This document shows, one piece after another, positions 6,105 to 64,000 of a stretch of DNA of 64,000 bases (within the stretch, counting starts at the first letter, position 1; every line of letters starts with the position of its first letter). The DNA is from Malassezia japonica (Eukaryota; Basidiomycota; Malasseziomycetes; Malasseziales; Malasseziaceae). Location: NCBI RefSeq assembly GCF_029542785.1, contig NC_083377.1, positions 310,001 to 374,000 of the forward strand. The letters run 5' to 3'. A program made the translations under genes and the position numbers. The notes beneath the pieces are model-generated. The model saw nothing but the letters and a program-made list of their open reading frames with translations, was not told the DNA's origin and searched no databases.

Positions 6105-6777
6105 ATGACCTCTACGATCCCTCCGCCGGCGCCCTCGCGCGTGCTTTCGGCAGAGGATGGCCCGCTGGTGTGGATCGACTGCGAGTAGGTAGCTGCGCTG
6201 ATTTAGAATGACCGGCTTGGATGCGCGCAAAGAGCGCCTGCTCGAGGTCGCGTGCATCATTACCGACAAGGACCTCGTGCCGGTCGACGCCGGGGTGACG
6301 TACGTGATTCAGACGCCGCGCGGCGTGCTCAGCGGCATGGACGAGTGGTGCACGACGACGCACAAGGCCACGGGCCTTACGGACGCGTGCCTTGCGCCCG
6401 ATGCACCCAGCCATACCGCGGTGCGCACGGCGATCCTGGCCTATGTGCTCGACCGCGTGCCCGACGTGCGCGCCGCGTGCCTGGCCGGGAGCACGGTGCA
6501 CGCGGACAAGACCTTTTTGGTGAACGAGATGCCCGAGCTGGTCGAGCACCTGCACTACCGCATTGTCGATGTGAGCACGATCAAGGAGCTCGTCCGCCGC
6601 TGGTACGGCCCCGAGAAGGTGTGGCAGTCGCACGAGGCGGTGCGGCACCGGTACGTAGTCGTGCTGACCCAGCGCACTCGACGATATCCGTGGCTCGATT
6701 GCCGGTACGTTATCTATCTCATCGCAGAGTTGCAATTCTACCGCAGTACAGTCTTTGTCCCAGGCGGGTATGCTTAG
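6105..6777 (+). CDS. REX2: Oligoribonuclease (3'-5' exonuclease, DEDDh family)
   Basis: The gene has four exons (6105-6184, 6207-6650, 6673-6704, 6728-6777) separated by introns of 22, 22 and 23 nt, and encodes 201 residues. Splicing restores the exonuclease motifs: VWIDCEMTGL across intron 1, and HRALDDIRGSIAEL across introns 2 and 3. Without it these conserved segments fall in different frames. The family degrades short oligoribonucleotides; the yeast homologue Rex2 acts in mitochondria and in RNA end trimming. The protein starts MTSTIPPPAPSR and has no strong presequence. Its TAG stop at 6775-6777 overlaps the TAA stop of the convergent lectin gene. Confidence 0.93.
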
Positions 6778-7838
6778 GCCATCGTGCGGCGCGTGTGACG
6801 CCGGGTGTTTGCCTTGTAGTACTGGTATCCAAAGTAGCCGCCTGCGCCGAGTGCGGCGAGGATCAGCACGTACTTGATCAGCGTCACGATCCCGAAGAAG
6901 AAACGCGTCACGAACGACGGCCCCGATGGCTGCGTGCGACGCTTTTTGGTCACGTCCAGTTCGCTCGCGCTCCACCAGTTCTTCTTCGGGGCGGAGTTCT
7001 CGCCAAAGATGTGCAGGCGCTCGCGCTCGAGGTCTGCCGGCGAGCGCGAGTGGTAGACCAGCGAGTTGGTCCACACCGAGATGATGTTGTGATTGTCCGT
7101 CACACCCCCGGTGCTCGCCGAGAAGCCCAGGTAGGGGTGCGTTAGGTCGACGGCCGGCACGCGGAAGCACGACGTCCACTTGTTCCACTCGCGGTTCTGA
7201 ATCGCGAGCTCCATGTAGACGTCCTTTACGTAGGTAAAGCGCAGGCGCGTCTCGACCGGCGTGCGGCGCAGCTGCGCGGTGCACGCCTCAATCTCCTGGT
7301 TCTCGCCGTCGTGCGCGACGTCGTAGCTCATCGCGCCGTCGTTCTGCACGATCGAGATACGCGGAAAAAAGGTCCGGTGCGGCGTGTTTGGGTAGGTGTC
7401 GAAAAAGATCCCGAGTCCCTTCCAGTGGTCCTGGCTGCCAAACACCGGTCCGGCGTGGGCACGCGTCGAGGTGAGCCACAGCGCAAAGCCGTCGCCGTGC
7501 GTCGTGACCGACTCCCCGTTGATCTGGAACTCGGCGGTGATCTCAAAGTCGTTCGCCTCGATCGGCAGACGCGACCAGAGCCAGCCACGCTCGCCCGAGC
7601 GGTCTTGCGTCAGGCGCACATACCGGTTCGTGTCGACAATCGCCGACCCGCCAAAGTCCCAGAACTCGTTCTGGAGGCTCGAATCGACGTACGGCGAAAA
7701 GAGCGAGTGCGTGCGCAGCGGCACAATTGCATCCGCATTCAGCTCAGGGTTCACGCCAGAAGAGCGCACGGCCGCAGCATATGAGGCAAAGAGCAGGGCA
7801 CTCGCACACAGCGTCCACGCCCATCGCATCCCCGCCAT
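6774..7838 (-). CDS. L-type lectin-like type I membrane protein (ERGIC-53/VIP36/Emp47 family)
   Basis: The 354-residue protein starts at the ATG at 7838, which opens a typical signal peptide (MAGMRWAWTLCASALLFAS). Residues about 45-275 form a leguminous-type lectin fold, with FWDFGGSAIV, HGDGFALWLT, GLGIFFDTYPN and YLGFSASTGG, all characteristic of ER-Golgi cargo lectins. A single transmembrane helix near residues 310-335 is followed by a short, very basic cytosolic tail ending RRHTRRTMA. Such proteins bind high-mannose glycans and cycle between ER and Golgi as cargo receptors. The tail has no obvious KKXX or FF export motif. The stop codon overlaps that of REX2, and the start is 77 bp from the divergent phosphatase gene. 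Confidence 0.87.
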   Translation of the reverse strand: MAGMRWAWTLCASALLFASYAAAVRSSGVNPELNADAIVPLRTHSLFSPYVDSSLQNEFWDFGGSAIVDTNRYVRLTQDRSGERGWLWSRLPIEANDFEITAEFQINGESVTTHGDGFALWLTSTRAHAGPVFGSQDHWKGLGIFFDTYPNTPHRTFFPRISIVQNDGAMSYDVAHDGENQEIEACTAQLRRTPVETRLRFTYVKDVYMELAIQNREWNKWTSCFRVPAVDLTHPYLGFSASTGGVTDNHNIISVWTNSLVYHSRSPADLERERLHIFGENSAPKKNWWSASELDVTKKRRTQPSGPSFVTRFFFGIVTLIKYVLILAALGAGGYFGYQYYKANTRRHTRRTMA

Positions 7839-7915
7839 GTTCCTCGTGGGAGAAGGAAGTTGTGGGGAATTATGCAAACTCGGCCGGACGCCGCGCGATT
7901 GTTGCTTGCGACCGC

Positions 7916-10367: not shown

Positions 10368-12153
10368 ATGCACTGGGCGGCATCGGCACAGGCGCTCGTC
10401 CGGGGGGGGATCCACGCCCAGCTGTCGGGCCTGCCGGAAGACAAGCAGAGTGGGATTCCATGCGAGCTCGAGCCGCTGGCGGTCCTGCTCGACGAGTGCA
10501 CGGACCTGCTGGCGTTCCGCGACGCAGAGCACAAGGCGGTGTTTGATCACCTCGCGCATCAGCGCGACGCTGCGCTCGCGCAGGCGGCCGTGCCAAAGGA
10601 CACGGCGCTCCAGAACGAACGATTTAATTACGCGCTGGCGGTCGAGGCGCTGCATGCAGTCCAAGGCGACCCAGACGCGACGTGCGTCGAGGCACCCAAT
10701 GCGCATGCGGTGGACGCCGAGGCGCTCCGTGCGGAGCACACGGCGACGGTCGAGAGGCTGCGTGCAGAGCACCACGAAACGCTCGAACAGCTGCGCGCCG
10801 AGCACGCGGCGGCCGTAGCGAGCCTCGCCGAGGAGCACGCGACGGCCCTCGTGGCGGCCAAGGCGTCGCACACGTCGGAGCGCAAGGCGCTCGAGGCAGA
10901 GTACATCGCGCTCAGCGAGGAAATGCAGACGGACCACGTCTTTGCGCTCGAGGATATGCGCAAGGCGCACGAGGCGGAGCAGAGTGAGGCGCAGAGCACC
11001 TTTTTCACTACTATGGATACCCTACACAAGAAACACGCCACGGAGCTCGCCGAGGTGCGTGCCGAGCGCGACAGCGCGCGTGCGCAGCTCGCCGAGACGT
11101 CGCGCGCACTCGACACCCAGCGTGCGTCGGTCGCCGACCTCGAAGCGCAGCTGGAGTCGATCCACGCGGCCTTGCAGGCCAACGACAAGGTGCTCGCCAC
11201 GGTGCGGCGCCGCGTCGAGGGGCTCGATGAGGTGCACGCACAGCTCGCGAGCAGCCGCGTAGCGATCGCATCCCTCACGGCTGCGCACCAGCAGACGCAG
11301 GACAGCCTTGCGCTCGAGAAAGAGCGCGCCACGTCTGCTGCGGACGCAGCCGCCGACGCCGAGCGGCGCTTTGCCGAGCGCGAGGCCGCGTTCCACGCCA
11401 AGACGCAGCGGCTGCACGAGGCCGAGCGGCGCCTCGGCGAGCTGCAGCGCGACGTCGAACGTACGCGCGAAGTGCAGGCGAATGTCGATACGCTGCAGCA
11501 GCGTGCCGAGCACGCAGAGAGCGAGGCGGTGGCGCTGCGCGAGCAGCTGCGCGTCACGGAGCCGATGCGTGCGCAGACCGCGCAGCTCCAGAGCGAGGTG
11601 CAGGAGCTGCAGACGCTCGTGTCGATGCACAAGAGCAGCGCCGAGCATGCGGCACAGGAGCATGTGCACGCCGAGGAAAAGATCAAGGAAATGTACGTTG
11701 CAAGGCTAACCCAGCACCGCCAAAGCGTTTGTCACCGAGCACACCCTGCGCGAGCGCGACGCAGAGGTCGAGACGCTCAAAGAGGCGCGCCGGCGGCATA
11801 CCGAGCAGATCCGTATGCTGCGTGCCGCCGAAAAGGAGATGCGCGCGGTGCGTGCGCCGGACCACGCCGCCGAGCTCCACGAGCGCATCGCGCAGCTGGA
11901 GCTCGAGCTGAGCGCCAAGGCGGAGGAGATCGAAGAGGCGGATACGCGCATTCTCCACGCGCTCAAAGACAACAAGCGCCTCGCGACGCAAAACAAGGCA
12001 CTGCAGGCGCGCCTCGACGGCCCGAAAGAGCGCGCGCTTCCGTTCCAGGACCGCACCAACACGCGCGCCGCCCCTGCGCCCGAGCCGGGCAAGTCGCCTG
12101 TGAAAAAGGTGGAGCGCGCCGAGCGCGCGGCGATCAGGCCGGGTGTTTTGTAG
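10368..12153 (+). CDS. Long coiled-coil protein of unknown function
   Basis: Two exons (10368-11692 and 11715-12153) joined across a 22-nt intron encode 587 residues. Without the splice the helical register and the acidic/basic heptad pattern break into a proline- and arginine-rich frame. After about 85 globular residues (MHWAASAQ..., LLDECTDLLAF) the protein is almost entirely coiled coil, with repeated AEH and AEHxxT units around residues 115-180 that look like an expanded heptad module. The C-terminal 50 residues are basic and proline-containing. I do not recognise the family; cytoskeletal, spindle or tethering roles would all fit such a rod. The ATG at 10368 was chosen because the upstream in-frame codon is GTG. 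Confidence 0.75.
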
Positions 12154-12199: not shown

Positions 12200-14492
12200 C
12201 TACGCCCCGTCGGGCGCCGGCCGCCGCGCACGCGACAGCACATTGGTGCTCATGAGCTGCACGACGTCCGAGTCGAGCAGCTCCGACTCGACCGTGTCGG
12301 ACGCGCGCAGCGTCAGGCGCACGACTGCGTCGACGACCGTCTGGTAGGACCGCAAGAACTCGCTCTCCTCGTCGTTCTGTGCGGTGAGCGGCGGCAGATT
12401 CGACTTTTCTTCGGCCGCATCGTGCTTTGGCGACGAAGTGTCGTGGCCGTGCATCGTCAGCGCCTCGATGCACGCCTCGAGGCACGGCGCGTGCGCCGCG
12501 CTCTTTTCCTCGACCACGTCCACAAGCGCCGTCTGGAGCTCGGCGCGCGTGCGGAATGGGATCGTGGGATTCTTTTCCACTTCGACCGCCGGCGGGCGGT
12601 GGGGGTATGCGGATGGGAAGGTAAAGACGACGCGCAGATAGGCCAGCGCGCGCGTCTGCTCGCTCCATGGGCCGCTCACTAGTACCGTGCACCGCCGGTG
12701 CGCGACGTCGATTGCTTCAAAGATATGCGGAAAGCGGCGGCCGACGCGCATAATCTCGTCGGGCAACACGCCGTAGTTGGGCGTGCGTGCAGGCACAGAC
12801 GCCGAGGGCGGTGCCTCGTCGCCTCCTTCGGCGCCGCGCTCGATCTGGACGCGGGTCATCCAGTTGACGGGGTCGTGAAAGGCGCCGGGTATCTCGTTTG
12901 CGTCCTGGTAGCGCATCTGCGGCCCCGCATCCGTGCTTCCCTGGCGGATATTGGCGGGGGGGGAGTAGGCGTGCAAGGACCGCAGCTGGCGCAGCGCTTT
13001 GGACGGACTGCGGCTGGGCAGCGAGCACGGATTGCCCCCAGAGATCGAGTAGCGATCCGGGAGCGACCGCGCAACGTCGCTCGCTGCGCGACGCGGCGAC
13101 GCACTGCTGCTGCTGCCGAACGACGTCTGGGTGGGCGAAATGTTCCACTCGGGCCGCACCTTGCGCCGCGGCTGCTGGATCTGGATGCCTTCTTGCGTGC
13201 TAATTTCGGGGCCGCTTGGCGTGGCGCTCACCTGCATCGGCGCGCCTTTGATGTGGCCGACCGAGTGCAGCATGTCCTCCGTGATCGGCCACATGCGCAG
13301 CGTCTGGTCCTTGCTCCAGGTAAGCAGCTGGAACTCGCGGTCGTCGTGCGACGCGTCGGTGCCGCCTTTGGTGCGGAAGAGAAACTCGCGCACAGTATCG
13401 GTATGTCCGTCGAACCGCTGGACCGGCTCGGTCTGTGTACCGGCTGCCCATAAGCACGGCGAGCAGTCGCCACGCTGCGCGACCGACATGGCGCCGTGGC
13501 CAAACGGGAGGTACTTGGCACGCCAAACCGGCTGCGGCGTCGCAATTGTCGCCAGCGGCACAGTGATAAGCTCGCGCCGCGACGCTGCGGCACGCGACGT
13601 CTCTGCGCCGAGGTCCCAGTACTTGATGGTGCCGTCGAGCGAGCACGTCATGAATTGCTCGCGGCCACACTCCATTTCGGGGCTCCACTGCAGGCCGTAA
13701 ATCTTGCTGTGGTGCGCCTCGACAGTGGCCAGGGGCAGCGCACCGAATCGGTCATCCCAGATCAAGACCTTGTTGTCGCACGAAGCGGCGATACGATGGG
13801 GCGACACGCGATTCCACTTGACTTGCGTCATGCTGGCATTCCACGCAGAGTAGCCTTGTGCCGGCTTGTGTCCTCGTCGGCCGCCCATGCGCAAGTCCCA
13901 TAGGTAGGTCCATGTGTCCACACTGCAGCTCGCCAGAATCTCGGGATGGATCGGCGACCAGTTGATATCGGTAATCGCACGTGTATGTGCGTCAAAGAGG
14001 CGCTCGACGGCGCTCGAGGTGCTCTCCGCAGGCTGTACCGAGCTGCGCTGATGCGCGAGACGCGTGGGTGGGATGCGGGGCGACACACCGATACCTCCCT
14101 CGCGGATGCGCCGGCGGGGCACGCCGCTCACCACGACGTCGGACGGCACAGGGGTCTTGGTCGCTTCGGGGCGCGACAGGTTCCATAGCACGAGCTTCTG
14201 GTTCGACGTGCTGGCGACCCACTCGCGCCGTGCATGGTGGGGATTCCACTGGATATCAGCCACCTCCCACGCGGTGCGGTGCGCGAAGAACTGGGGAAGG
14301 GCATAGGGGTTCTCGAGGTCGAGCACAAAGAGCCCTATCTTTGCGCCGAGCACCACGTCGCGGCTCGCTGGATTAGTGGGGGGACGTACATGGGCTCAGA
14401 CTCATACTTCCCATCGGCTGCATGACATTAATCACGGCCGACTTGTGCATCGTGCCGCCCAGCGCGCCAGAGTCTACGCGCTGGACCGTCAT
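12200..14492 (-). CDS. WDR59/Sea3-like WD40-RWD protein of the SEA/GATOR2 complex
   Basis: Exon 1 (14390-14492) and exon 2 (12200-14367) are joined across a 22-nt intron, giving 756 residues. The join restores the first WD40 blade (MSLSP|SSRDVVLGAKIG). WD repeats continue with QWNP, SCSVDTWTYLWDLR, SQVKWN-type and LLTWSKDQTLRMW segments, as in WDR59. An RWD domain follows near residues 560-680. The SEA/GATOR2 complex acts on the vacuolar membrane upstream of TORC1. WDR59 proteins normally end in a zinc-binding RING-like region; here the chain stops soon after the RWD and only 46 bp separate it from the convergent gene, so that module is absent. A second in-frame ATG at 14450 is an alternative start. 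Confidence 0.82.
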
Positions 14493-14579: not shown

Positions 14580-16278
14580 ATGCGCGAAGGCGAGCCGGAG
14601 GAGGTCCAGCTGCGCCCTCCTGCCCGCGTACTGCGCGACCATGAGCGGGGCGAGGACGCGTACGAGATGGTAAGGCGGGTATATTCGCAGTGCCTGTGGC
14701 TCGGAGAGGCGCACACGCCGCTGCGGGCGTTTCTGGAGCTGCTGGAATCGGTACAGAGCGGCGCCTATCATCTCGTGCATCTCGTGCGCACGCCTGCCGA
14801 GATCCGCGCGCGCTTCCCTGCGTGGGCTCGCGAGAGGCTCTTGGACATGCACGAAAAAAGGGGCGAGTCGTCTGTGCCCCATGACCACGAGGCGGCGGCG
14901 ATGCACGCTGCACTGACCTTGGGTCCACTGGCGCGTACCTTGCCACAGGATCCGAGCGCGCTGGCGCAGTTTGTACATGCGATGCACTGCAGAGAGTACG
15001 TGGATGTTCTGACACAGGGTCCAGCTGCAGCTCGTGCTCCTTGCGTGGCTCCTCGCCAGGAAACGCCATGGCGATCCGCACTTGGCGCACGAAGGCGAGG
15101 CGCCCAAGGCGAAACGGAAATCGTCCAAACCACGGCGCTGGACGGGCATGGCGCCTGCGCTTCCGTTTTCATTTCTATGGGACACGAAAAAGAGCCGCAA
15201 AGGGCGGGCGGACCAAAAAAATACCGGCGACCGGCCAGAGGGAGCGGAAGACGAAGCGGCACGCGCAGCGACCGACTCGCCAATCTCGGAGGTGTCGACG
15301 CCAGGCGAGGCACCGAACAGCGCGTCGGATGCCGTGCAGCCCGAATCAGCGCCTGGCATTGTATCCAGCACACCACATTCCCTGGCCGTTCTACACGACA
15401 CCAACTCTTCTGTACATTCCCTCTCCCCCGCCCCCTCTCAAAGGATCGCGATGCTCGCACAGTACTGGGACCTGCTCGGCGACCAGTTGTGCCTCTTGCA
15501 GTGCGCGCCTACGTCCTCGGCTGGCGTCATGTACGGCTCTGCCGCACACATTCGCCCTGTGAATGACGAGCGCGACGAGGCGCAGTGGCTCTGTGCATCG
15601 GTCCTGGAGCCGGTCTTTTCGAGCACCCTCCCGAAAGAGTGTGCCCGTCTGCGAACCAAGTGCTTTGGCCCCGGCCCGGTCGCTACGCCTGCCCCCCGCC
15701 GCCTAAAGCGCACGACTTCTGCGCCGAGCACGCAGCCCGTTGACAAAAAAGAGCCGCTGCCTACGCTGCGTACCGAGGAACGCACCATGATCCGCGCCGA
15801 CCGCAAGCAGCGCGAAGTGGTGATGCCACGACAGCTCAAGCGCAGCACGAGCGTAAGCGCAGCACCGGCGGCCGCGCCTCCCAATAAGCGCAAGCGGCCG
15901 GCGAGCCGGTGGGGCGCGGCGGCCGAAGGGCATACACTTGTCTGTGCGACGCCCGAGAAGCCGAAGCAGCTTGTGCCCCAAAATGTCTTTGGCAGCGTCT
16001 CGCCCTCGCCGCCGCCCCTGGCGCGCGCCGAAGCGATCGCCAGCCCGACCGCGTCACGTTTCCCCGAGCCGACGTCGCCGGGTGACAAGGCGCATACGAA
16101 TCCCCTTGCGCAGTCCGCGCCCTCGCTCATGGAGCATGTGCTCGCGGCCGAGTCCCCCCCGCGCTCACTGTCGATGCTCGACATGCCCTCGGAAGAGGAG
16201 GAGGAGGAGGAGCTCGTCATACCCGCGTGGCGCAAATCAGCGTTACTGCCTACGTCGCTGCCGTTTGCCTATCGCTAG
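14580..16278 (+). CDS. Sld3-like DNA replication initiation protein
   Basis: Two exons (14580-14995, 15018-16278) with a 22-nt intron encode 558 residues. The spliced product has CREVQLQLVLLAWLLA across the junction, then basic linkers, then WLCASVLEPVFSSTLPKECARLRTKCFG. This order resembles the Sld3/Treslin central domain, where a RE-x-QLQ-x-L helix precedes a segment ending in a short Cys-containing basic motif; I make the match from memory and it is tentative. The C-terminal third is disordered, rich in KR and SP/TP sites suited to kinase control, and ends in seven glutamates before LVIPAWRKSALLP. Sld3 recruits Cdc45 to loaded MCM. The stop codon overlaps that of USO1. Confidence 0.6.
16192..16212 (+). 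repeat. GAG/GAA run encoding poly-glutamate
   Basis: Seven consecutive Glu codons (GAA followed by six GAG) lie near the C-terminus of the Sld3-like protein, about 70 bp before its stop. Confidence 0.9.
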
Positions 16279-19365: not shown

Positions 19366-20882
19366 ATGACGCAGTGGACCTATGACGAAGTTGCGAAGCA
19401 CGGTTCGCGGGATGACTGCTATGTTATCTTGTACAATAAGGTGTACGACTTGACCGAGTTTATCCCTGAGCACCCTGGTGGCCCTCAGATTATTATCAAG
19501 TACGCCGGCAAGGATGCAACGTAAGTCACCTAGCTCATGCCAGTACCATTTTCGACCCTGTCCACCCCAAGGGAACGATCGAGAAGCACCTGCCGGCTGA
19601 AAAGTGCATGGGCGATGTGAACGTCGACACGGTTCCTGAGGAGGTCCTGCGCGAGCGCGAGGCGCTCGAGCAGGAAGAGGTTGCGCGCCGCAAGAACCTT
19701 CCCCCGGTGACGCAGTGCCTGAACCTCTACGACTTTGAGATTGTCGCGCGCAAGGTGGTCACCCCCATGGCGTGGGCCTACTACTCGTCGGCTGCTGACG
19801 ACCAAGAGACGCTCCACGAAAACACCTCGGCGTTCCGCCGTATCTGGTTCCGCCCGCGCATCCTGCGCAACGTCAAGCATGTGGATACCAGCACCCTTAT
19901 CCTCGGCCACCCCAGCACGCTGCCTGTGTACATTACTGCCACAGCTCTTGGCCGTCTGGGCCACCCTGACGGTGAAAAGAACCTGACGCGTGCTGCGGCC
20001 CAGACGGGTCTGATCCAGATGGTTCCCACTCTCTCGTCGTGCTCCTTTGAGGAGATTGTTGCGGAGCGCACGCCCGACGGCAAGCCGACGCAGTTCTTCC
20101 AGCTGTACGTGAACAGCGACCGGAGTGTTGTGCTCGATATGCTCCGCGCCGCCGAGGAGGCCAACATTCAGGCGATCTTTGTCACGGTCGACGCTCCCCA
20201 ACTAGGCCGCCGCGAGAAGGACATGCGCATGCACTTTGACGACGCTGGCTCGAACGTGCAAAATACCCAGGGCGAGGACGTGGGCCGTGACGAGGGCGCG
20301 GCGCGTGCCATCAGCTCGTTCATCGACCCCAGCCTCAACTGGGACGACGTGCTCTGGATGAAGAACCAGACGCGCATTCCCATCCTGCTCAAGGGTGTGC
20401 AGACCTGGGAGGACGCCGTGCTCGCCGCCGAGATGGGTCTCGCGGGTGTCGTTCTGTCGAACCACGGTGGCCGCCAGCTCGACTTTGCGCGCTCCGGTAT
20501 TGAGATCCTGGAAGAGGTGGTGACCGAGCTGCGGAAGCGCGGCTACTACCCCCGCAAGAACTTCCAGCTGTTCGTCGATGGCGGTATTCGCCGTGCGACC
20601 GACGTCCTGAAGGCCATCGCACTGGGCGCCACTGCCGTCGGTATCGGCCGTCCGTTTATCTACGCCTTCTCAGCCTACGGTGCGGAGGGTGTCGTGCGCG
20701 CGGTGCAGATCCTGCGCGACGAGATGGAGATGAACATGCGCCTTATCGGCGCGCCGACGCTCAAGGATGTCGTGCCCGAGATGCTCGACCTAAGCGCTTT
20801 GCACGCACGGGCTGGTACCGTCGGCGAGCGCTGCGGCACCACCGTGCTCGACCCGATGGGCAACGGCAAGAGCCATCTGTAG
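19366..20882 (+). CDS. CYB2: Flavocytochrome b2-type FMN-dependent alpha-hydroxyacid (L-lactate) dehydrogenase
   Basis: Two exons (19366-19520, 19544-20882) with a 23-nt intron encode 497 residues. An N-terminal cytochrome b5 heme domain ([14 protein letters not shown], with the first heme-ligand His in HPGG) is fused to an FMN TIM barrel with [16 protein letters not shown] and DGGIRRATD, the last two being flavin and substrate segments of the lactate/glycolate oxidase family. Yeast Cyb2 works in the mitochondrial intermembrane space and passes electrons to cytochrome c. Here the heme domain begins at residue 2, with no presequence, and the chain ends Ser-His-Leu, a PTS1-like tripeptide. Cytosolic or peroxisomal placement is therefore more likely, and the substrate could be another 2-hydroxy acid. 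Confidence 0.88.
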
Positions 20883-20961: not shown

Positions 20962-22058
20962 ATGGGTGCGTGCTTCTCTGGGCCGGCGGGCGACGGCGAC
21001 CAGGATGCGAAGCTCAAGAGCATGGAAATTGATCGACACCTGGATGAGGATGGGCGTCGGGGGAAGAGCGAGTACAAGATCCTGCTGCTAGGTACGTCCG
21101 CTCGGCTAACATAGGCTCTGGCGAGTCGGGCAAGTCGACGATTGTGAAGCAGATGAAGATTATCCACCAGAACGGCTACACGCCGGATGAGTTGCTGGTT
21201 TATCGTCTGACGGTGATCAAAAACCTCGTTGACTCGGCGAAGACGGTTGTGCTGGCGCTGCGCAAGTTTAAGCTCGAGCCCGAGCGCATCGAGAACCGGG
21301 AGAATGCCGACGTGATTCTGCAGTACGAGGTCGCGCCGAGTGCCGACACGGTGCTCCCGCCCCATATGGGCGCTGTTATCACGTCGCTGTGGAACGACCC
21401 GGTAATCACCAAGCTCTTGGACCGCAGCACCGAGTTCTACATGATGGACAATGCCGCGTACTTTTTCACGAGCGCATCGCGCATCGCCACGCCGACCTAC
21501 TTGCCTAACGAGCAGGATGTGCTGCACGCGCGATCCAAGACCATCGGTGTGATGGAGACGCATTTCCGCATGGGCGAGTTATCCATCCACCTCGTCGACG
21601 TGGGCGGACAGCGCTCGGAGCGGCGCAAGTGGATCCACTGCTTCGAGGCGGTGACGTCGATCATTTTCTGTGTCGCCCTGAGCGAGTACGACCAGGTGCT
21701 GCTGGAAGATAGCCAGCAGAACCGCATGGCAGAGAGCCTGGTGCTGTTTGAGAGCGTGGTCAACTCGCGCTGGTTTACCCGCACGTCGGTCGTCTTGCTC
21801 CTCAACAAGATCGACATCTTCCGCCAAAAGATCCCAAAACACCCGCTGGCGGACTACTTTCCGGAGTACACGGGCGGTAACGACGTGAACAAGGCGGCAA
21901 AGTACATTCTTTGGCGCTTTACCCTCGCGAACCGCGCCAAGCTCAACATTTATCCCCACCTGACGCAGGCGACCGACACGAGCAACATCCGCCTGGTGTT
22001 TGCGGCAGTGAAGGAGACCCTGCTGCAGAACTCGCTGCGCGAGACGGGCCTGCTGTAG
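20962..22058 (+). CDS. Heterotrimeric G protein alpha subunit
   Basis: Two exons (20962-21091, 21115-22058) with a 23-nt intron give 357 residues, the standard G-alpha length. The splice falls inside the P-loop and restores [12 protein letters not shown]. The N-terminus MGACFS carries the glycine for myristoylation and a cysteine for palmitoylation. Other motifs are [12 protein letters not shown] (switch II), NKID and TQATDT (guanine specificity). Switch I reads ARSKTIGV, where many G-alphas have RVKTTGI: the arginine and first threonine are kept and the second threonine is isoleucine. It acts at the plasma membrane downstream of seven-helix receptors for pheromone or nutrients; I cannot assign it to a fungal subgroup with confidence. 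Confidence 0.95.
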
Positions 22059-46640: not shown

Positions 46641-46649
46641 GTAAATAGA

Positions 46650-46665
46650 CACGTGGGACCACGTG
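46650..46665. promoter_or_regulatory. Paired CACGTG sites, 10 bp apart, between the two Trk genes
   Basis: CACGTG occurs at 46650-46655 and 46660-46665, spaced one helical turn, inside the 63 bp gap. The pair lies about 40-55 bp upstream of the ATG at 46704. Confidence 0.5.
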
Positions 46666-46703
46666 AAGGTGAACCGTGCGAAGCAAGGTTGTGGTTCGCC
46701 GCC

Positions 46704-48833
46704 ATGCCGGGCGACGTGCGCGAGGCCGACGCGCAGCCCACGGGCTTGCATGGCGTCGCACACACGATCAAGCGCGTCGGAATGACCTACCTAAACTATT
46801 TTGTACGTCGTTAGGCTCACCAGCGCATCCACCTGCTCTTTTTCGCGACCGTGTCGCTCGTGGCCTCGGGCATCCTGTACGGCATGAACGGAGACAGGCA
46901 CGTCGCCTACATCGACTGCCTCTTTCTCTGTGCATCGGCGATGAATGTCACAGGCATGGTCACGGTTCCCGTGTCGCAACTCACGCTGGGGCAGCAGATC
47001 CTCCTCTTTATCCTGATGATGCTCGGCAACTTGATCGTGAATAGCATGGCGGTCGTCTTGATACGGCGGCACATGTTTGGGCGCGCATTTCGCAACATTG
47101 TCAAGCACAATGTCTCGCTCCAGCGGCGTCTGCGCGACCTGGAGCAGCAGGAGCTCGAGGAACTCCACCACGACTTCGACCGCATCCGCGGTTTCTTTCA
47201 CGGAGAGCATGCGCCGCGCAAGCCAAGCATGTCTGTACATGCGCTCGATGAGACCCGCGCGCAAGAGTGTGCAGAAGAGCATGAAATGGGCGATGCGGCG
47301 CCTTCTCATACAGCCACGGATACCCCTGAGCCGACCCCATCCCCTGCGCCCGTGCAGCGTCCCAAGCCGACGCTGCGGCGCACTATGATCAAGAGTAAAA
47401 GCAGGGGCATGGGCGATTTTCCATCGTTGATTGACTTGACGTCACTGGTCTACCGCATGGCCCGCGCCTGGTCGCACGGATGGAAGTACGGCAAGCGCCC
47501 GCCGCAGGCCGCGGCGGACAAGTCCGAGGCGGCGCAGGACGCGCCGTTTGTATTTTCGCGACTGCGACCTGAGCGGAATTCGCGCTTTCGGAACCTCACG
47601 ACCGCGCAGCGCAACGAGCTCGGGGGCGTCGAGTACCGCGCGCTGGATTTACTTGCGTGGCTCATCCCCATCTACTGGATGAGCTGGGTGGTGCTCTCGT
47701 TGGTAGTTACCATGCCCTACCTGGCGAGTGGGAGCGCCGCACAGTACCGCACGTACCTCGACGAGCAGCCCGGCCCGCCCCGCAATATTCAGTGGTTCTG
47801 GGTGTTTCAGACGGTCTCGGCGATTACCAACACCGGCCTGTCGTTTTCCGACATGAGCATGCAAAAGACGCTCAGCGGCGCGTATATGATCCTCATCCCG
47901 ACTACGGTCCTGACGCTGATTGGCAACACGGCGTACCCCGTGGTGCTGCGTTTTCTGCTCTGGGTCATGTCCAAGTGCGTCGCGCGCAAATCGCAGCTTG
48001 GCGAGTCGGTGCAATTTCTGCTGGACCACCCCCGCCGCTGCTTCCTGTACCTCTTTCCCAGAGAGAATACATGGTTCCTCTTTTTTGCCATTGTCACCTT
48101 GACGCTCCTCGAGTGGCTCTTGCTCATGGTCCTGGATTTGAACCGGCGCAACGACTTTCCGTCGGTGGGGACGTGGGTCTTTGGCGCATTCTTTCAGTCG
48201 GTCGCGACGCGCTCGTCCGGTTTTCAGACCTTTGACATTCTGCGCCTTGCGCCTGCGATCCAGATTTTGCAGGTGCTCATGATGTACCTCGAAGTGTACC
48301 CCTTGACCATGGCCGTGCGCACGACCAATGTCTACGAAGAGCAGAGCCTCGGCATTTTCGAGAGCCCCCAAGAGACCTCTGAGCCCGCGCCAGAGCCCAA
48401 GTCGTGGGGCGGCCGTTTCCTGCGCGAGCAGATCCAGCGGCAGGTCGCCTACGACCTCTGGTGGGTCGGCCTCGCGATCTGGATCGTGTGCATTGCCGAG
48501 CAAGGCAAAATTCAGAACGAAGAACGATACCCCTACCTGCAAATTTTTACCATTATTTACGAGCTCATCTCGGCCTACGGCACGGTCGGCCTGTCGTGCG
48601 CGCCTAGCAACGTCTCGCTCTCGGCAGAATTCTCCACCATTTCCAAGCTGATCGTCATTGCCGTCATGTTTCGCGGCCGCCACCGCGGCCTCCCCGGCGC
48701 AATAGACCGTGCGATTATGCTCCCCAGCGAGCTCCTTTCGTACGAATCCGCACCCGACGCCGACAAGGATCCCGACGCACGCGCCTCGAGCGTGCGCGCA
48801 CACCCCTCCGACACGCGCCAGCGCGCCGCGTAG
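46704..48833 (+). CDS. Trk-type potassium transporter, second of a tandem pair
   Basis: Exons 46704-46802 and 46824-48833, split by a 21-nt intron, encode 702 residues. Filter segments SAMNVTGMVTVP, SAITNTGLSFSD, SVATRSSGFQTF and SAYGTVGLSCAP match the first copy closely, and the last helix is again followed by GRHRGLPGAIDRAIMLPSEL. It is about 210 residues shorter, mainly because the loop between pores 1 and 2 is reduced and the C-terminal tail is short. The intron sits at the same codon position as in copy 1, after LNYF and in phase 0, so the pair arose by tandem duplication of an intron-bearing gene. The shortened loop and lost tail suggest different regulation. Confidence 0.93.
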
Positions 48834-48871: not shown

Positions 48872-49832
48872 ATGAGCAGCGTCGCGAGCAGCGCGGCGAG
48901 TGCCTGGAGCAGCGCCGTGAGCGCAGCGAGCAGTGCGCCTGTGGTGCCTGTTGCAACGCATGCGGAGAGTGTGCTGGCGGATGCGCTTCTTTTGCGTGTG
49001 CACCTGACGCGCGCCGACGTTGCGGGCTTTATCAAGAGCTTTACCATTACCACGGTACGTTTCCTTTCTGACGCAGATTTCCGAAATTGGCGACAAGACG
49101 TTCCTTACGAGTGCCATCCTCGCGATGCGCCATCCCCCAGTGACCGTGTTTTGGGGCAGCTGGTCGGCGATGATTTGCATGTCGACGCTCTCGAGCCTCA
49201 TGGGCGCCGTGCTCCCTGCGCTCCTCTCGCACCGCGGCGCACTCACCATCTCTGCGCTGCTGTTCCTTGGCTTTGGTGCGGTCACGCTCTTCCGCGGTCT
49301 GCAGATGCGCGGCGATGAGCTCGGCGAAGAGTGGAAAGAGACCCAGGACGAGATCCGGGCCGACGAGCAGGAGCACGAGCTCGACGAGCTCGAGCGCGGC
49401 GACACGTCGGACGTATACCCCAACTTCACGCTGTATCCCAGCCAAACCAGCACGCTGCAGCGCGCATCCGAGGCGCTGCATGCGACGCCAAAAACGTCCA
49501 TGTCCGCCTTTGTGCGAGAAGGCGCACGGAACCTGTGTGGCCTGTGCTTTAGCCCGGTGTTTTCCCAGGCGTTCCTCCTGAACTTTCTCGGCGAGTGGGG
49601 CGACCGCTCGCAGATTACGACGATGGCGCTCGCGGCGACGCACCGCACCGCCATTGTCGCTGTCGGCACGAGCCTCGCGCATTTGGTGTGCGTCGCGATC
49701 GCCGTCACGGCCGGCGCCATGCTCGCCGCGCGCCTGAGCGTCAAGCACCTCACGCTCGGAGGAGCGGTCCTCTTTTTAGTGTTTGGCGCAAGCTCGGCAT
49801 ACCAAGCATGGCACGAGGCGCCGCCTAGCTAG
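48872..49832 (+). CDS. GDT1: Gdt1/TMEM165-type cation transporter
   Basis: Exons 48872-49054 and 49077-49832, split by a 22-nt intron, encode 312 residues. The splice restores the first family motif, TISEIGDKTFLTSA. The second is LGEWGDRSQITTMALA. These two inverted E-phi-G-D-[KR]-[ST] motifs in separate three-helix repeats define the UPF0016 family. A charged linker of about 60 residues separates the halves. The N-terminus is Ala/Ser-rich. Gdt1 transports manganese and calcium in exchange for protons in the Golgi and supports glycosylation. The gene ends one base before the stop of the convergent SUN-domain gene. Confidence 0.93.
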
Positions 49833-57733: not shown

Positions 57734-58405
57734 ATGGACGCCCACGCCCCACGCACCCGCCCCAACCCACGCGACTATATCCAGACAGCCGCGACCGGCA
57801 ATGCGCTCTCGCGGCGTGCCGCGATCTATGGCGCGTCCAACATCGTGCTCGGTGGTAAGTGCATCGTCGAGCACCGTGCGATTCTGCGCGGCGATTTGCA
57901 GCGCACGGTACGCGCCGAGGGCGACGAGCGCTCGAGTGCCGTCGTGATTGCCATGGGGCGCTACGGACACGTCGGCGAGCACGCCGTGCTGCGCCCGCCG
58001 CACAAGACCTACAAAGGGTACGTCGTGTGCCTGACCCAGTCTCTTTTCCTACTTTCCGCTGCGCCTCGGCGACCACGTCACGATCGGTGCACGAACCGTG
58101 GTCGAGGCCGCGCAAATCGGCAGCCATGTCGAGATCGGCGCTGACTGCGTCCTGGTACGCCTCTCTTCTGACCCAGGGCGCCTTTTGCATCGTGCGCGAC
58201 GCGGCGGTGATCCTCGACGGCGCCGTTCTCGCACCCCATACGATCGTTCCCAGCATGACCATCTTTGGCGGCTCGCCAGGTACGTCTACGTACTCACCCA
58301 GCGCGCATCGTAGACCGCCTCCCCGAGTCGTTTGAGGATCAGTGCGAAGCACGCAGCCGCGAAGCCTACGGCGCATTTCGCGCTGCGCTCGGACATCGCC
58401 CGTAG
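57734..58405 (+). CDS. Dynactin subunit p25 (DCTN5 family)
   Basis: Four exons (57734-58017, 58040-58154, 58177-58279, 58302-58405) separated by three 22-nt introns give 201 residues. The joins restore a left-handed beta-helix: NIVLGGKCIVEHRAILRGDL, LGDHVTIGARTVVEAAQIGSHVEIG, GADCVL|GAFCIVRDAAVILD and PHTIVPSMTIFGGSP|RIVDRLPES. This hexapeptide pattern and the ending ESFEDQ match p25, which caps the pointed end of the dynactin Arp1 filament and helps bind cargo adaptors. The stop at 58403-58405 is only 25 bp before the ATG of the next gene. Confidence 0.9.
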
Positions 58406-58430: not shown

Positions 58431-59831
58431 ATGACGATGACCGGCCATGGTACGGTGCAGCTCCCGTCGCTGCTGGACACGGACCTGTACAAGCTGACGA
58501 TGCAGCAGGCCGTGCTGCAGCACTTTCCGGATGCCCAGGTGACTTGTACGTAGCAGTGCTCACCAGACCGCTTCACGAACCGGTCGAAGGAAATGCAGTT
58601 TACCGCCGCGACCGTCGATGCGGTGCGTGCGGGGATTGAGCGTACGTCGTGTGGCTTATGCAGACCTCGGCACGCTGCGGATCTCTGCAGAAGAGGAGGC
58701 GTGGCTGCGCGAAGCGTGCCCGTACTTTCAGGAAAAGTACCTCGCGTTCCTGCGCGACTTTCAGCTGCGGCCTGCCGACGAGGTCGACGTGCGTTTCGTG
58801 CCGACCGACGGCGAGTACGGCCAGCTCGAGGTGCTCATCCAGGGCGCATGGGCGTCGGTCATTCTGTACGAGGTCCCGGTGATGGCGATCATCAGCGAGA
58901 CCTACTTCCAGACCGTCGACCGCGACTGGACCGCGGCCGGGCAGCGGGAACGTGCGGCGGACAAGGCACGCAAACTGCTGCAGCACGGCGTCATGCTGTC
59001 CGAGTTCGGCACGCGCCGCCGCCGCTCGCTCGCGACGCACGTCGAGGTGATGCACGGCCTGCTCGATGCGCAGAAGGAGGTGGGCGACGCGCCTGGCGCG
59101 GGGCGCATCCTAGGCACGAGCAATATCTACCTTGCCAAGCAGTTTGGCGTCGCACCGGTCGGCACAGTCGCGCACGAGTGGACGATGGCCATCGCCGCGA
59201 TCCACGGGTACGAGCACAGCAACCTGCGTGCGCTCCAGCTCTGGGACGCCGTCTACCAGCCCCCGGCCTTTACGCCGGCGCGCCCCGTCGACGATCTCAC
59301 CATTGCGCTGACCGACACGTTCAGCACGCGCGTCTTTTGGGACGACCTGCTCTCGAGCGAGTCCGGCAAGGAGATCCTGCGCCGCTGGCGGGGCGTGCGG
59401 CAGGACAGCGGCGACAGCCGCGTGTTTGTGCGCCATGCGCTCGACGTATACCGCAGCATTGGCGTGGACCCTGCCAAGAAGCTGGTCATCTTTTCCGACG
59501 GTACGTCTATGAGCTTATGCAGGCCTCAATGTCGAGCGGTGCCTCGAGCTCCAGGCGTTTGCGAAGGAAATGGGCATCCTCGCGGGTTTCGGCGTGGGGA
59601 CGCACCTGACGAACGACTTTGGGTGCGCTTCGGATACGTCGCGCAAAAGCCGCGCGCTGAATATGGTGCTCAAGCTCGACTCGATCAACGGGCACCCTAC
59701 GGTCAAGATCAGCGACGAGCTTACGAAGAACACGGGCGATGCGGACGAGATTGCGTACGTTGTGCGGCTTACCCAGCCTTGTCAAGCGCCGCTTTGGTCT
59801 GTCGGGCGCCGATTCCGTGGAGGATGCGTAG
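58431..59831 (+). CDS. NPT1: Nicotinate phosphoribosyltransferase
   Basis: Five exons (58431-58545, 58567-58641, 58664-59500, 59523-59754, 59777-59831) with introns of 21, 22, 22 and 22 nt encode 437 residues, close to yeast Npt1 (429). Splicing restores TDLYKLTMQQAVLQ, YRFTNRSKEMQF, FGTRRRRSLATHV, GTVAHEWTMAIAA, RQDSGDS, FSDG|LNVERC and FGVGTHLTND, all from the catalytic core. The His of AHEW is the residue phosphorylated in the family. The enzyme makes nicotinate mononucleotide in the Preiss-Handler NAD salvage route. A second ATG six bases later (58437) is an alternative start. It has the most introns of any gene here. Confidence 0.95.
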
Positions 59832-60131: not shown

Positions 60132-60649
60132 CTACTCCAGCGCGGTCCATTCACACATGCCCAGCATTTCCACAACTGCATAAGCGACGCCACGTACACT
60201 TTCGGTACTCGAACCGCTTGCGTGTCCGATCCAAGAACGGCGGCACGAGCCACTGATCGATCTGCATTAGCCGCGACACGCACCGCCTCCTGGTCATTCG
60301 CCAGGATCTCTTTCACGACATCGACGTCGACGACGCCCTCGTCGCGCTCGTCAAAGCTTTCAAACGCCTCGAGCAGCTTGCGTGCATCGCTCACCGGCCC
60401 CATACGCGTCGCCATCATCGTCAGGAAGCTGGTCGCGTCGAGTTCCGGAGCGTCGCTGCCGAGCACGTCCGCCTGGAAGTGCTCTTTTGCCTCGGTCGGC
60501 GCGTCGCGCGCGCCGAGACTGCGCAGCGCCTTGGCGAGGTCACTCTCGCTCACGTTCCCGTCCTCGTCACGGTCCAGCGCATAGAATACACGCTGAAGCT
60601 GCTTGATCTGCGCAGGCGACAGGCGCGCCAGCGCCCCCCCTTCGCTCAT
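60132..60649 (-). CDS. EF-hand myosin light chain (regulatory light chain-like)
   Basis: Three exons (60284-60649, 60198-60261, 60132-60175) separated by two 22-nt introns give 157 residues. Splicing changes an apparent Ala/Arg-rich tail into IDQWLVPPFLDRTRKRFEYRK|FVEMLGM, a typical EF-hand light-chain end. EF-hand 1 (DRDEDGNVSESD) keeps all Ca/Mg ligands. The other hands are degenerate, and DERDEGVVDVD begins the third. Regulatory light chains bind the IQ motifs of myosin II. There is no N-terminal extension carrying the usual phosphorylated serines. An essential light chain or Mlc2-like role is possible. The start is 39 bp from the divergent nucleoporin gene. Confidence 0.83.
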
Positions 60650-60670
60650 GGTGGAGGTGTGTTGATTGTC

Positions 60671-60676: not shown

Positions 60677-60688
60677 GCTTCCTCCGTC

Positions 60689-61676
60689 ATGTTCGCGCCT
60701 GCGACGCCCGGACGGGGCATGCGGCGCCCCTGGACGCCGGCACGTCGCGACGACGCACGGCAAGAGAATGCACAAAAGAGTCCACAGGCCATTGCGACAG
60801 GCAATAGTGTTTTGAGCGCGGCAAAAGCGCTTGCGGCGAGTGCAGCGCCGAGCACCGCGCCGAACGCGGTGGCCAGCGTCGCTGCCCCCCCGCCCAAGCC
60901 GCCTGCGGCGCCGGCGGCACCGGCGGCGCCGAGCGCGAGCCCTGCGAAGGCGCCGTGGCTTGCGCGGCGGCCAGCGCCGATGACGACCGCGACGGCACAG
61001 CGCCGTGTCTCGTGGAACTTGGCGAGTCTTGCGCTGCTCTATATCGTGCCGAGCGCGTGGCCCGGCATTCTCGATGTATACTACGACCTGCTCGAGGCGC
61101 TCGTGCACACGGGCCGCCTGCCGGACGGCGCCGACGAGCTGCTGGATGCGGTTCTGACGTGGCTGCGGTATGCGCTCACCATTGTCTTTGTGTTCAACAT
61201 GGCCGAGGCCCTGCTCATGCGCCCCGCCCCCCCGCCGGTCGGCGAGCGTGCGACAGAAGTCGGCGCGGCATTTGCGCGCAGCGTGTCGAGCGGCTCGCCG
61301 CTCACGCGCCCCGACCTCCCCCAGCGGCGGCACGTCTCTGGCGTGTCGGCCGTGACGCCCGCGACGCCGCATGCGACGCCGCAGCGCACGCCTGGGCGCA
61401 GCGTCTCGCCGTTCCGTGCGTCGCCCTATGCGCTGGGCCGCGGCCGGCCGTCCTCGACGCCCTTTTCGCAGCGCAGCACGTCTGGCACGCCGCGGCGCAC
61501 GCCGTCGCACCGCGATGCGTTTGCGGGCCGCAGCGTGAGCCGCACGTCGCCCGGCGTGCGGCGCTCGCCGAGTATGCAGGCGTCACCGCCTGGAGCACGC
61601 AGCGAGCTCGGTACGTGTTCTTACTCACACAGAGGATGTACGGGAAGTAGAACAGGCGCTGCAGCAGTTGCGCTAG
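60689..61676 (+). CDS. Pom34-like membrane nucleoporin
   Basis: Two exons (60689-61610, 61633-61676) with a 22-nt intron encode 321 residues. An Ala/Pro-rich N-terminus of about 105 residues precedes two transmembrane segments (VSWNLASLALLYIVPSAW and LTWLRYALTIVFVFNMAEAL), a VSWN start typical of the fungal NPCC/Pom34 family. The C-terminal 130 residues are Ser/Thr-Pro-rich with many TPxxTPxR repeats, likely kinase sites. The last exon adds only EDVREVEQALQQLR, a short amphipathic helix. Pom34 anchors the nuclear pore with Pom152 and Ndc1. Identification rests on topology and the short motif, so it is tentative. Confidence 0.5.
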
Positions 61677-61686
61677 GGTATAGGCT

Positions 61687-62259
61687 CTATAGGGTCAGGT
61701 TGTACTCGTAGTCGCTCTCCACGCGCTGGCTGAACCAGAGGATCACCGCGCAGGCCATGATGGCCATGTTTTGCACGACGCCGGCCACGCCGAGCTCGAC
61801 CAGCCCCTCGGCCGCGTTGTTGGCCATATACTTGATGATCAGCACAGCCATCGAGCCAGCCATGCCCCCCGCGAGGAACGCAAAGCCGATAAAGAGCCAC
61901 ATGCGCGTCCGCCAAAGCACCGGGTCCTCGTTCCAGGCGCCCGACTGCAGCGCGCCCTCGTCGAGCAGGTGCTGCTTGTTGATCATATTCACAATCGCGA
62001 GGCCGAGCGTCGTGCTCAGGCCACTCACCCAGTCGTCCAGCTTGATCGAGACGCCGGGGGGCTGAAACGGCTCGTCGCCGGGCGGCGGACGGTGCAGGTG
62101 GTGCGAGCGCACGCACGCATCCAAAAAGATCCACCACCCCGCCGCAAAGAGCGCTCCGGAAGCATACACGCCAAACGCACGCCGGTTCGTGCGCAAGGCA
62201 GAGGCGATATTCGGCAGCCGCACGCGGCACACGCGCCGCGTCTCACTCGTTCGGACCAT
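61687..62259 (-). CDS. VPS68: Vps68/TMEM50 (UPF0220) membrane protein
   Basis: A 190-residue single-exon protein with four predicted transmembrane helices. It carries the family pattern NRRAFGVYASGALFAAGWWIFLDA, then MWLFIGFAFLAGGMAGSMAVL and MAIMACAVILWF. UPF0220/TMEM50 proteins of fungi (Vps68) act in endosome-vacuole sorting, with Vps55. The ATG at 62259 gives a basic cytosolic N-terminus. It starts 42 bp from the divergent CEF1 gene and ends 10 bp from the Pom34-like stop. Confidence 0.92.
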   Translation of the reverse strand: MVRTSETRRVCRVRLPNIASALRTNRRAFGVYASGALFAAGWWIFLDACVRSHHLHRPPPGDEPFQPPGVSIKLDDWVSGLSTTLGLAIVNMINKQHLLDEGALQSGAWNEDPVLWRTRMWLFIGFAFLAGGMAGSMAVLIIKYMANNAAEGLVELGVAGVVQNMAIMACAVILWFSQRVESDYEYNLTL

Positions 62260-62301
62260 GGAGGCGCGGGACTTGCTGACTAATTCTTTTCTCCTGCCGC
62301 G

Positions 62302-64000
62302 ATGGTGCGCGTGATCGTCAAGGGCGGCGTGTGGAAGAATGTAGGTGGAAAGGCTGACGCAGACGGAAGATGAGATCCTAAAAGCAGCCGTATCCAAGTA
62401 CGGAAAGAATGTAGGTAGCGTGGCTGACGCAGCAATGGGCACGTATCTCGTCGCTGCTCGTGCGCAAGACGCCGAAGCAGTGCAAGGCACGGTGGTACGA
62501 GTGGCTCGACCCGTCCATCAAGAAGATTGAGTGGTCGAAGGAGGAAGATGAGAAGCTGCTTCACCTTGCGAAGCTCATGCCGACGCAGTGGCGCACGATT
62601 GCGCCGATCGTCGGCCGCACCGCGACACAGTGCCTCGAGCGGTACCAGCACCTGCTCGACGAGGCTGAGTCGCTCAACGACCCGCTCGCCCTCGAGGGGC
62701 CCGGCGCAGAGGCCGCGCCGAGTGCGGATGACGTGCGCCGCCTGCGCCCGGGCGAGATCGACCCGGACCCAGAAACAAAGCCGGCGCGCCCAGACGCGGT
62801 CGACATGGACGAGGAGGAAAAGGAGATGCTCTCGGAGGCGCGTGCGCGTCTCGCGAATACAGAAGGTAAGAAGGCAAAGCGCAAGGCGCGCGAGCGCGCG
62901 CTCGAGGACGCACGCCGCCTCTCGATCCTCCAGAAGCGCCGCGAGCTCAAGGTCGCGGGCATTTATACGCGTACGCGCAAGAAGGACAAGTTCCACATCG
63001 ACTACTCGAAAGAGATCCCGTTCGAGCGGCAGCCCGCGCCGGGATTCTATGATACCACGGAGGAGTCGGCACGCGTGTTGGACGCGCCACTCGGCCGCTC
63101 CATCGGCCAGATGGACAGCGGGGGGCGCGCCGAGCCAGAGCAGGACAAGCGCAAGCGCGAGGAAAAGAAGGCGCCGCAGCCCAAGCATGACGAGGCGCTG
63201 CGCAAGCTCCGCGAGGAGGAGATCGTGACCAAGCGCCGCAAGCTCTTCCTGCCGGAGGCGTCGGTGGGCGAGCGCGAGCTCGAGCAGATCGTCAAGATGG
63301 GGCAGGCGGGCAACACCGCCCGCGCTCTGGTGCAGAACGACGAGGGGACGGCGACCGACGGCCTCCTCGGCGAGTACGCCACCATGGAGGCGCACGAGGC
63401 GCCGCCGACGCCAGCGACGCCGTCGACGGGGCACGAAGCGCTCCTGCGCGAGGCGCAGAACCTCAAGCGCCGCACCGAGACACAGACGCCGCTGCTCGGC
63501 GACGATAACGCCACACTCCACGATACCGCACAGCCCGAGGCGACGCCAGGCGCGACGCCACGCACACTCACCACGCCGGGCGTAGCGCCGGGCGCAACGC
63601 CGGGCGCGACGCCGCGCCGCGACACGCTCGGCCTGAACGCCGACGTGCCGGGCACGCCACGCAGCGAAAAGGCCGCGCAGCGCGCCGCAAAGCACGGGCT
63701 GCTCGCGGGCCTCGGCAGCCTGCCCAAGCCCAAGAACGACTTTGAGCTGGTCGTCGACAACGCCGAGGACGCCGAGTCTGTCGCCGCGCCGGACGTCGAG
63801 GAGGATGCGGCGGAGCGCGACGCACGCCTCGCGCGCCTCGCCGAGGAGGAGCGGGCGCGCGAGTTTGCGCGCCGCTCGCAGGCGGTGCAGCGCGACCTGC
63901 CGCGCCCGCTCGAGGTCGACGCGGAGCTCGCGTCGGAGCTTGCCGTGCTCCACGACGGCGACGCAGTGCAGAGCGCCATTGACCGCGAAATGCTGGCGTT
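62302..64000 (+). CDS. CEF1: Cef1/Cdc5 splicing factor, N-terminal part (cut by the window edge)
   Basis: Three exons so far (62302-62340, 62363-62410, 62433-64000+) separated by two 22-nt introns give at least 551 residues. Splicing builds the highly conserved Myb start: VKGGVWKN|TEDEILKAAVSKYGKN|QWARISSLLVRKT, then CKARWYEWLDPSIKK and KLMPTQWRTIAPIVGRTATQCLERYQ. The basic EARARLAN...KRKARERALEDARRL region and a TP-rich segment with TPGAT repeats follow. Cef1/Cdc5 is a core Prp19-complex component of the activated spliceosome. Both introns follow the same codon pair (AAG AAT) and are 18/22 identical to each other. The gene continues past the window. Confidence 0.95.

Follow-up and report, generated by a model that had tools for sequence, protein, structure and literature searches.

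In Stentor coeruleus, spliceosomal introns are 15-16 nucleotides (nt) long, with a branch A at position 10-11, an AU content of 75.6% and no strong branch consensus, as described in the passages cited here (PMC9505925). Type B introns of Trichomonas vaginalis, 24 in number, are uniformly short, about 25 to 23 nt, and carry the branch motif near the 3' end; the same 2025 paper, in the part cited, ranks 23 nt with the shortest introns known and names those of Stentor (15 nt) and of Bigelowiella (18 nt) as the only comparable ones (PMC12316389). Ultra-short introns dominate the genomes of nucleomorphs (18-20 nt) and Paramecium (about 25 nt), and nucleomorph splicing reportedly drops for introns of 21-27 nt (PMC5014332, excerpt). 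In Cryptococcus neoformans, a basidiomycete yeast dominated by short introns, introns average 56 nt with a small population below 40 nt, and passages of a 2025 paper describe this species as having the most short introns of all the fungi examined there (PMC11913375). Here we analyzed 24 stretches of 21-23 nt that interrupt open frames in 64,000 nt of Malassezia japonica DNA (contig NC_083377.1, positions 310,001 to 374,000; this whole stretch is called the window below). Judged by their signals and by the proteins that they interrupt, they are very probably ordinary U2-type spliceosomal introns, eroded until only the shortest spacing accepted by the M. japonica spliceosome is left.

The short introns of M. 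japonica resemble those of Stentor in near-uniform length, a fixed branch A and a 3' tail of 5 nt, but they are 22 nt long, with the branch A at position 17 and a strong CTNAY motif, and they occur in a GC-rich genome together with a tail of longer introns. Uniform shortness and a branch motif near the 3' end are shared with the T. vaginalis introns, whose 24 examples contrast with about 2,000 here by extrapolation from 200 kb. As in nucleomorphs and Paramecium, ultra-short introns dominate; these, however, are unrelated lineages, and longer introns exist here. C. neoformans is likewise a basidiomycete yeast with mostly short introns, but of greater average length. M. japonica joins the ultra-short-intron genomes and is unusual among them as a fungus.

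For the genus itself, a review refers to "very short introns" in Malassezia genomes (PMC7426719), and the annotation of M. restricta was run with a minimum intron length of 20 and then 15 (PMC6473144). Mean and median intron lengths of 37.2 and 30.0 nt are given for M. restricta (PMC9241646, Table 1) and of 68.1 and 40.0 nt for M. arunalokei (PMC9241646), and a mean of 76-79 nt is given for M. globosa (PMC4634964). These passages give neither a 22-nt mode nor a fixed branch-point register, both of which are seen here, and we found no description of either for Malassezia in the passages of open-licence PubMed Central literature consulted. Short introns are known in outline to annotators of the genus, whereas a floor of 22 nt in a fixed register was not found described in those passages.

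Signals of the short introns in the window

The 24 stretches had been listed in an earlier note made from this DNA. All of them read out at their coordinates on the correct strand, 21 on the forward strand and three on the reverse strand (14368-14389, 60176-60197 and 60262-60283), and the length split given there is borne out, with 19 stretches of 22 nt, three of 23 nt and two of 21 nt. Each of the 24 begins with a 5' splice site of the form GT[AG]NG[TC], in keeping with the GTRNGY-kind consensus of U2-type introns, and each ends in AG with the branch-point motif CTNAY just upstream, in keeping with the U2-type yUnAy. U12-type introns carry the 5' site (A/G)TATCCTT and the branch site TCCTTAAC; all 24 introns show GT[AG]NG[TC] and CTNAY instead. 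In the 22-nt form, the 5' splice site occupies positions 1-6 and is most commonly GUACGU, CUNAY occupies positions 14-18, the A at 17 being the branch A, and NCAG fills positions 19-22.

A scan of both strands of the window with the pattern GT[AG]NG[TC]...CTNAY...[CT]AG, at lengths of 15-150 nt, recovered 24 of the 24 listed introns. At exactly 22 nt it gave 21 rows, representing 20 distinct places, whereas 20 second-order Markov sequences led to an expectation of 0.25. Within the range of 21-23 nt, where 1.05 chance matches were expected, two matches were unlisted, one at 37480-37500 on the forward strand and one at 35938-35959 on the reverse strand, the latter antisense within an intact ABC-transporter frame.

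Length distribution and register in the genome

The earlier note had suggested a genome-wide histogram of intron lengths as a check. Lengths were counted here in 200 kb drawn from three other contigs (C1-C3) of the assembly, which comprises 8.43 Mb in nine contigs; the sample consisted of twenty 10-kb stretches, three of them contig ends, and third-order Markov controls were used for the relaxed and the stricter motif alike. A peak appeared at 22 nt, with 47 matches to the relaxed motif against 0.6 expected and 38 matches to the stricter motif against 0.0 expected. With the stricter motif, the excess over control was 0.5 at 15-20 nt, 1.9 at 21 nt, 38.0 at 22 nt and 5.6 at 23 nt, with a further excess of about 40 for 24-99 nt and about 4 for 100-130 nt, and the 22-nt length made up about 43% of the total detected excess of about 89. 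The sample thus has a mode below 30 nt and a narrow peak, as an ultra-short-intron genome does. In a second sample, taken around 57 genome places of the sequence ATACVTACCT, 22 nt was also the commonest intron-like length (13 of 34).

These data indicate that 22 nt is the peak and the sharp left edge of one distribution, which has a tail to about 50 nt and includes some introns near 100 nt. The earlier note had spoken of a class of 21-23 nt; the short introns are real, but a separate class is not what the lengths describe, and the 21-23 nt range is rather the peak and lower edge of the whole. Extrapolation from the 200 kb suggests that the genome may hold about 2,000 introns with a length of exactly 22 nt (Poisson range about 1,400-2,600). 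Long introns survive as well: one of 98 nt with TACTAAC lies directly before the ATG that starts MGAYKYLEEL (locus L087, 1386-1483), in a gene that we take to encode an RPL15-like protein. A survey of fungal introns places M. sympodialis among the intron-poor species (PMC8476143, in the passage concerned), a placement hard to reconcile with some 2,000 short introns in M. japonica, unless short introns escaped notice or the two species differ.

In the 200 kb, the branch motif stood at one common offset in 46 of the 47 relaxed and in all 38 strict 22-nt matches, and exactly 4 nt followed the branch motif in 59 of 73 candidates of 21-39 nt, or in 21 of 35 when the 22-nt ones were left aside. Added length in the longer introns lies mostly, although not always, between the 5' site and the branch point. 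Among 66 matches of 22 nt, base +4 was C 49 times, G and T 8 times each and A once, and the base preceding the branch A was unconstrained (A 21, G 19, C 14, T 12).

Protein restoration at the junctions

The claim of the earlier note that each removal restores conserved residues holds for 16 of the 24 junctions, which lie within the Pfam match of the spliced protein, and for two more by comparison with a paralogue; at the remaining six only the frame and the motif speak for splicing. The introns below lie on the forward strand unless stated, and all carry the motif described above. The Pfam-internal junctions comprise all three of REX2, all four of NPT1, all three of DCTN5, both of a Cef1-like gene and one each in Cyb2, G-alpha, Sld3 and Gdt1.

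In the oligoribonuclease gene REX2, removal of intron 1 (6185-6206; 22 nt, phase 2) restores WIDCEMTGLD and removal of intron 2 (6651-6672; 22 nt, phase 2) restores HRALDDIRGS, both within the RNase_T match, and removal of intron 3 (6705-6727; 23 nt, phase 1) restores IAELQFYR, at the last residue of that match. The stretch WIDCEMTGL at junction 1 is also present in the proteins of M. globosa, M. sympodialis and M. psittaci. Likewise, the P-loop GSGESGKST of the G-alpha gene is restored within the G-alpha match when 21092-21114 (23 nt, phase 1) is removed, and ITTISEIGDKTF of the Gdt1 gene is restored within the GDT1 match (amino acids 55-128) when 49055-49076 (22 nt, phase 0) is removed. Removal of the intron of the cytochrome b2-like gene Cyb2 (19521-19543; 23 nt, phase 2) restores a stretch of 14 residues within the Cyt-b5 match, and the intron of the Sld3-like gene (14996-15017; 22 nt, phase 2) falls at amino acid 139, a position derived from coordinates, within the Sld3_STD match at amino acids 125-422. 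The dynactin p25/DCTN5-like gene has three introns of 22 nt within the DCTN5 match, at 58018-58039 (phase 2), 58155-58176 (phase 0) and 58280-58301 (phase 1). Two phase-0 introns of 22 nt, at 62341-62362 and 62411-62432, each lie within a Myb match of a gene that we take to be Cef1-like, a name given in the earlier note.

The NPT1 gene contains four introns, at 58546-58566 (21 nt, phase 1, with an in-frame stop), 58642-58663 (22 nt, phase 1), 59501-59522 (22 nt, phase 1) and 59755-59776 (22 nt, phase 2). Over all 437 residues the spliced product is identical to P0121, a public protein of M. japonica, whose gene model already splices out the three introns of 22 nt and the one of 21 nt; at least four of the introns listed here are therefore already annotated. 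Support of another kind comes from two tandem Trk-like genes (43871-48831), which have one common intron place. The first copy, a Trk-like potassium transporter, has an intron of 22 nt there (43982-44003; phase 0), whose removal restores TYLNYF/RVHL, and the second copy, a paralogue with a TrkH match, has one of 21 nt (46803-46823; phase 0, with an in-frame stop), giving TYLNYF/RIHL. Outside the window but on the same contig, a METTL16-like profile match shifts frame at a further 22-nt intron, and taking this intron out unites both parts of the match.

The six remaining junctions are spread over five genes. In a gene for a coiled-coil-like protein, removal of 11693-11714 (22 nt) gives a joined frame of 587 amino acids. 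A WD40/RWD protein gene has, close to its start, an intron (14368-14389, reverse strand; 22 nt, phase 1) whose removal also joins the frame, with the junction upstream of the WD40 matches. In the Ribosomal_S2-family gene (uS2m-like), the frame joined by removal of 38901-38922 (22 nt, phase 1) runs into Ribosomal_S2, and the junction, at amino acid 80, is ahead of the matched stretch 116-318. An EF-hand gene on the reverse strand, presumably myosin light chain-like, has intron 1 at 60262-60283 (22 nt, phase 0) and intron 2 at 60176-60197 (22 nt, phase 1); the joined frame spans 60649-60132 and both junctions are outside the EF-hand match. Finally, an intron at 61611-61632 (22 nt, phase 1) lies near the 3' end of a gene that we assume to be Pom34-like, with a joined frame of 321 amino acids and no family matched in Pfam.

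Apart from these genes, the window contains an open frame of 2,628 codons on the reverse strand (22097-29983). It also encodes a Ste6-like ABC transporter, whose closest named relatives belong to Malassezia.

Proposed mechanism and splicing machinery

The reading of these stretches as spliceosomal introns, already put forward in the earlier note, is supported by their signals, their spacing, the enrichment over chance, the restored domains, the identical public protein and the presence of U2, U5 and U6 genes. We propose that deletion wore the introns to a minimum and that they would be removed by U2-type splicing through intron definition. In the 22-nt form, the lariat would have a loop of about 17 nt and a tail of 5 nt. 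Since such an intron leaves no room for a polypyrimidine tract, the 3' site would probably be chosen by the branch point and the first AG downstream of it. A geometric floor would set the edge at 22 nt, in agreement with the abrupt left edge of the distribution and with the 5 nt that commonly follow the branch A. A 5-nt tail is also found in Stentor, which suggests that for this stretch of the intron the limit may be general, although the loop can be shorter there (10-11 versus 17 nt; PMC9505925, in the passage cited). U1 and U2 would have to share one very short substrate.

Genes for three spliceosomal small nuclear RNAs (snRNAs) were found in the genome, namely U2 with the branch-pairing element GUAGUA, U6 with the ACAGAG box, and U5. 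The genome also encodes an SF1-HH domain, a METTL16-like methyltransferase and a U2AF65-like protein. Solved structures of U2AF65 match this protein in the RRM part and, to the extent that the searched piece covers it, in the C-terminal part; the SF1-HH piece had no match in the PDB. The U2 gene (L022, from 1465) and the U5 gene (L088, reverse strand) share the element AAAAATATAAA about 37 and 45 bases upstream, a possible candidate for an snRNA promoter box. The SF1-HH gene (L026, G000:C1:62486-62514, reverse strand) changes frame at a run of C, where no intron motif was found, possibly owing to a homopolymer error of the assembly.

Several observations weigh against the proposal of worn-down U2-type introns. 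That the RNA is spliced is an inference from the sequence, and six of the 24 junctions (11693, 14368, 38901, 60176, 60262 and 61611) have frame and motif but no homology behind them. Open frames of at least 30 codons on each side occur in 57 of the 66 motif matches but also in 72% of 1,622 control GT-18N-AG strings, so that this measure hardly discriminates; at 100 codons or more on each side, the values are 18 of 66 and 21%. In this GC-rich DNA, we rejected open-frame length as proof of splicing. The fixed tail does not extend to all lengths, since it differs in four of the five window introns that are not 22 nt long (two with 3 and two with 5 bases after the branch motif); the fifth differs in its front part. 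As for the machinery, the U2AF65-like protein scores 224.4 bits, under the curated NCBIfam cut-off of 310.3, and the METTL16 Pfam family, which occurs in bacteria, is also over its cut-off in four control prokaryotes. A U1 snRNA was not found in the genome by the Rfam U1 model at E values up to 10; this loose search gave below-cut-off matches in nine of 14 prokaryote controls. Both ATACTTACCTG and the canonical ten-base 5' end of U1, ATACTTACCT, each had 0 matches in the 8.43-Mb assembly, against 5 for the reversed control of ATACTTACCT. This absence may reflect a changed U1 end, a missing piece of the assembly or a variant outside the decamer tested.

Alternative explanations

The missing U1 end bears on one alternative, in which the Malassezia spliceosome itself has changed and a U1 with an altered 5' end reads the 5' site and the branch point almost as one signal. 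The C at +4 in 49 of 66 matches, the absence of ATACTTACCT from the assembly and the single branch-point register of the 22-nt introns point in this direction, yet we regard it as improbable. A search for altered U1 ends found ATACGTACCTG at 6 places and ATACVTACCT at 57 places in the genome. By a loose test that includes chance matches, 34 of the 57 carry an intron-like motif on the opposite strand, so that ATACVTACCT at those places reads as the antisense of 5' splice sites. One candidate U1 gene, L039, has a fitting G at position 5; it was rejected, as its surroundings are the 98-nt intron before the RPL15-like start. Rfam models applied to 20 of the 57 places and to a wider L039 locus detected no U1, and at none of the 57 was a U1 gene demonstrated. 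Moreover, all U1 sequences found across 230 Saccharomycotina and 10 outgroups have ACUUACC unchanged, according to passages of a study whose own model failed to detect U1 in C. neoformans (PMC10581693). Loss of METTL16 as the cause of the rare A at +4, an idea taken from the same passages (PMC10581693), is not supported, because a METTL16-like gene is present.

It is similarly doubtful that many of these stretches are regulated retained introns. A length of 22 nt is 3n+1, so retention would shift the frame and lower expression; 19 of the 24 introns have this length, and a retained intron meets a stop within 50 codons in 39 of 57 open-frame matches. However, the geometric floor explains the length peak equally well. 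Both 21-nt introns of the window hold an in-frame stop, but a sample of two shows nothing.

Far less credible than either is the spread of recent copies of one mobile intron (introner), which the uniform length and signals might bring to mind. The seven middle positions of the 66 matches have a mean identity of 0.323, against 0.333 expected from column composition, and a single middle 7-mer was found twice; similarity in the middle does not exceed that due to composition, which argues against recent copying of one intron. Copies of an introner should be alike beyond the splice signals, and these matches are at background identity. In addition, one position is common to the Trk-like paralogues and, judged by read-through or missing residues in their proteins, positions are common to other Malassezia. 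Intron gain or loss does occur, since two metagenome relatives show no sign of an intron at the REX2 place 6651.

Removal by another route, such as tRNA-type or Ire1-type cutting or ribosome skipping, is hardly conceivable: the length is far under the 79-125 nt reportedly covered by the human A complex (PMC11913375, in the part cited), but spliceosomal signals and U2, U5 and U6 genes are present, and spliceosomal introns of 15 nt in Stentor (PMC9505925) and 23 nt in Trichomonas (PMC12316389) are described in the passages cited. A further alternative, of which the earlier note had named assembly indels, takes the breaks for indels of sequencing or assembly or for decayed genes resembling short insertions. 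Such errors may exist here, possibly in the SF1-HH gene, but indels would not bring along GT, branch point and AG in a single register, nor give 38 strict 22-nt matches where 0.0 are expected, and public annotation splices the four NPT1 introns identically, which refutes this alternative for the introns as a whole.

Malassezia relatives and their annotation

Among the matches listed are 11 named Malassezia entries for NPT1, of which four show disruption at or next to these junctions and two are fusions (P0123, P0133, P0160, P0178, P0125 and P0128 for the disrupted and fused entries together). The M. brasiliensis protein has nine extra residues at junction 3, that of M. psittaci is without residues 39-65 and 338-353, that of M. 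vespertilionis is without residues 1-47 and 65-85, and that of M. sympodialis departs after junction 1 and is without its C-terminus. In Malassezia sp. CBS 17886 and M. nana, NPT1 is fused to a DCTN5-like part, DCTN5-like being the neighbouring gene in M. japonica. We read the disrupted entries as annotation that may have missed or mishandled short introns at shared places. Introns of the form GT...CTNAY...AG, 27 nt long in M. brasiliensis and 22 nt long in M. sympodialis, would fit the read-through residues; these lengths, as for all relatives here, were back-inferred by hand from peptides and not from DNA.

The REX2 gene gives a similar picture. At junction 2, the public proteins of M. globosa and M. 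sympodialis diverge following HR, and at junction 3 back-inference from the proteins of two metagenome relatives puts a frame-consistent intron of 21 nt at the same place. Two Malassezia REX2 entries (P0242 and P0265) are publicly named "Phosphatidylinositol 3,4,5-trisphosphate-dependent Rac exchanger 2", probably through a confusion of gene symbols.

Introns of 22 nt rank with the shortest known and are easily missed by gene-finding programs, and, to judge from one gene, the intron minima usual in annotation may damage many proteins of skin-associated Malassezia. With 22 nt as the commonest detected intron length, strong signals and one register, M. japonica would offer an accessible fungal system for studying how U1 and U2 assemble on a tiny substrate, and the same yeast introns could bear on what sets the minimum length of an intron.

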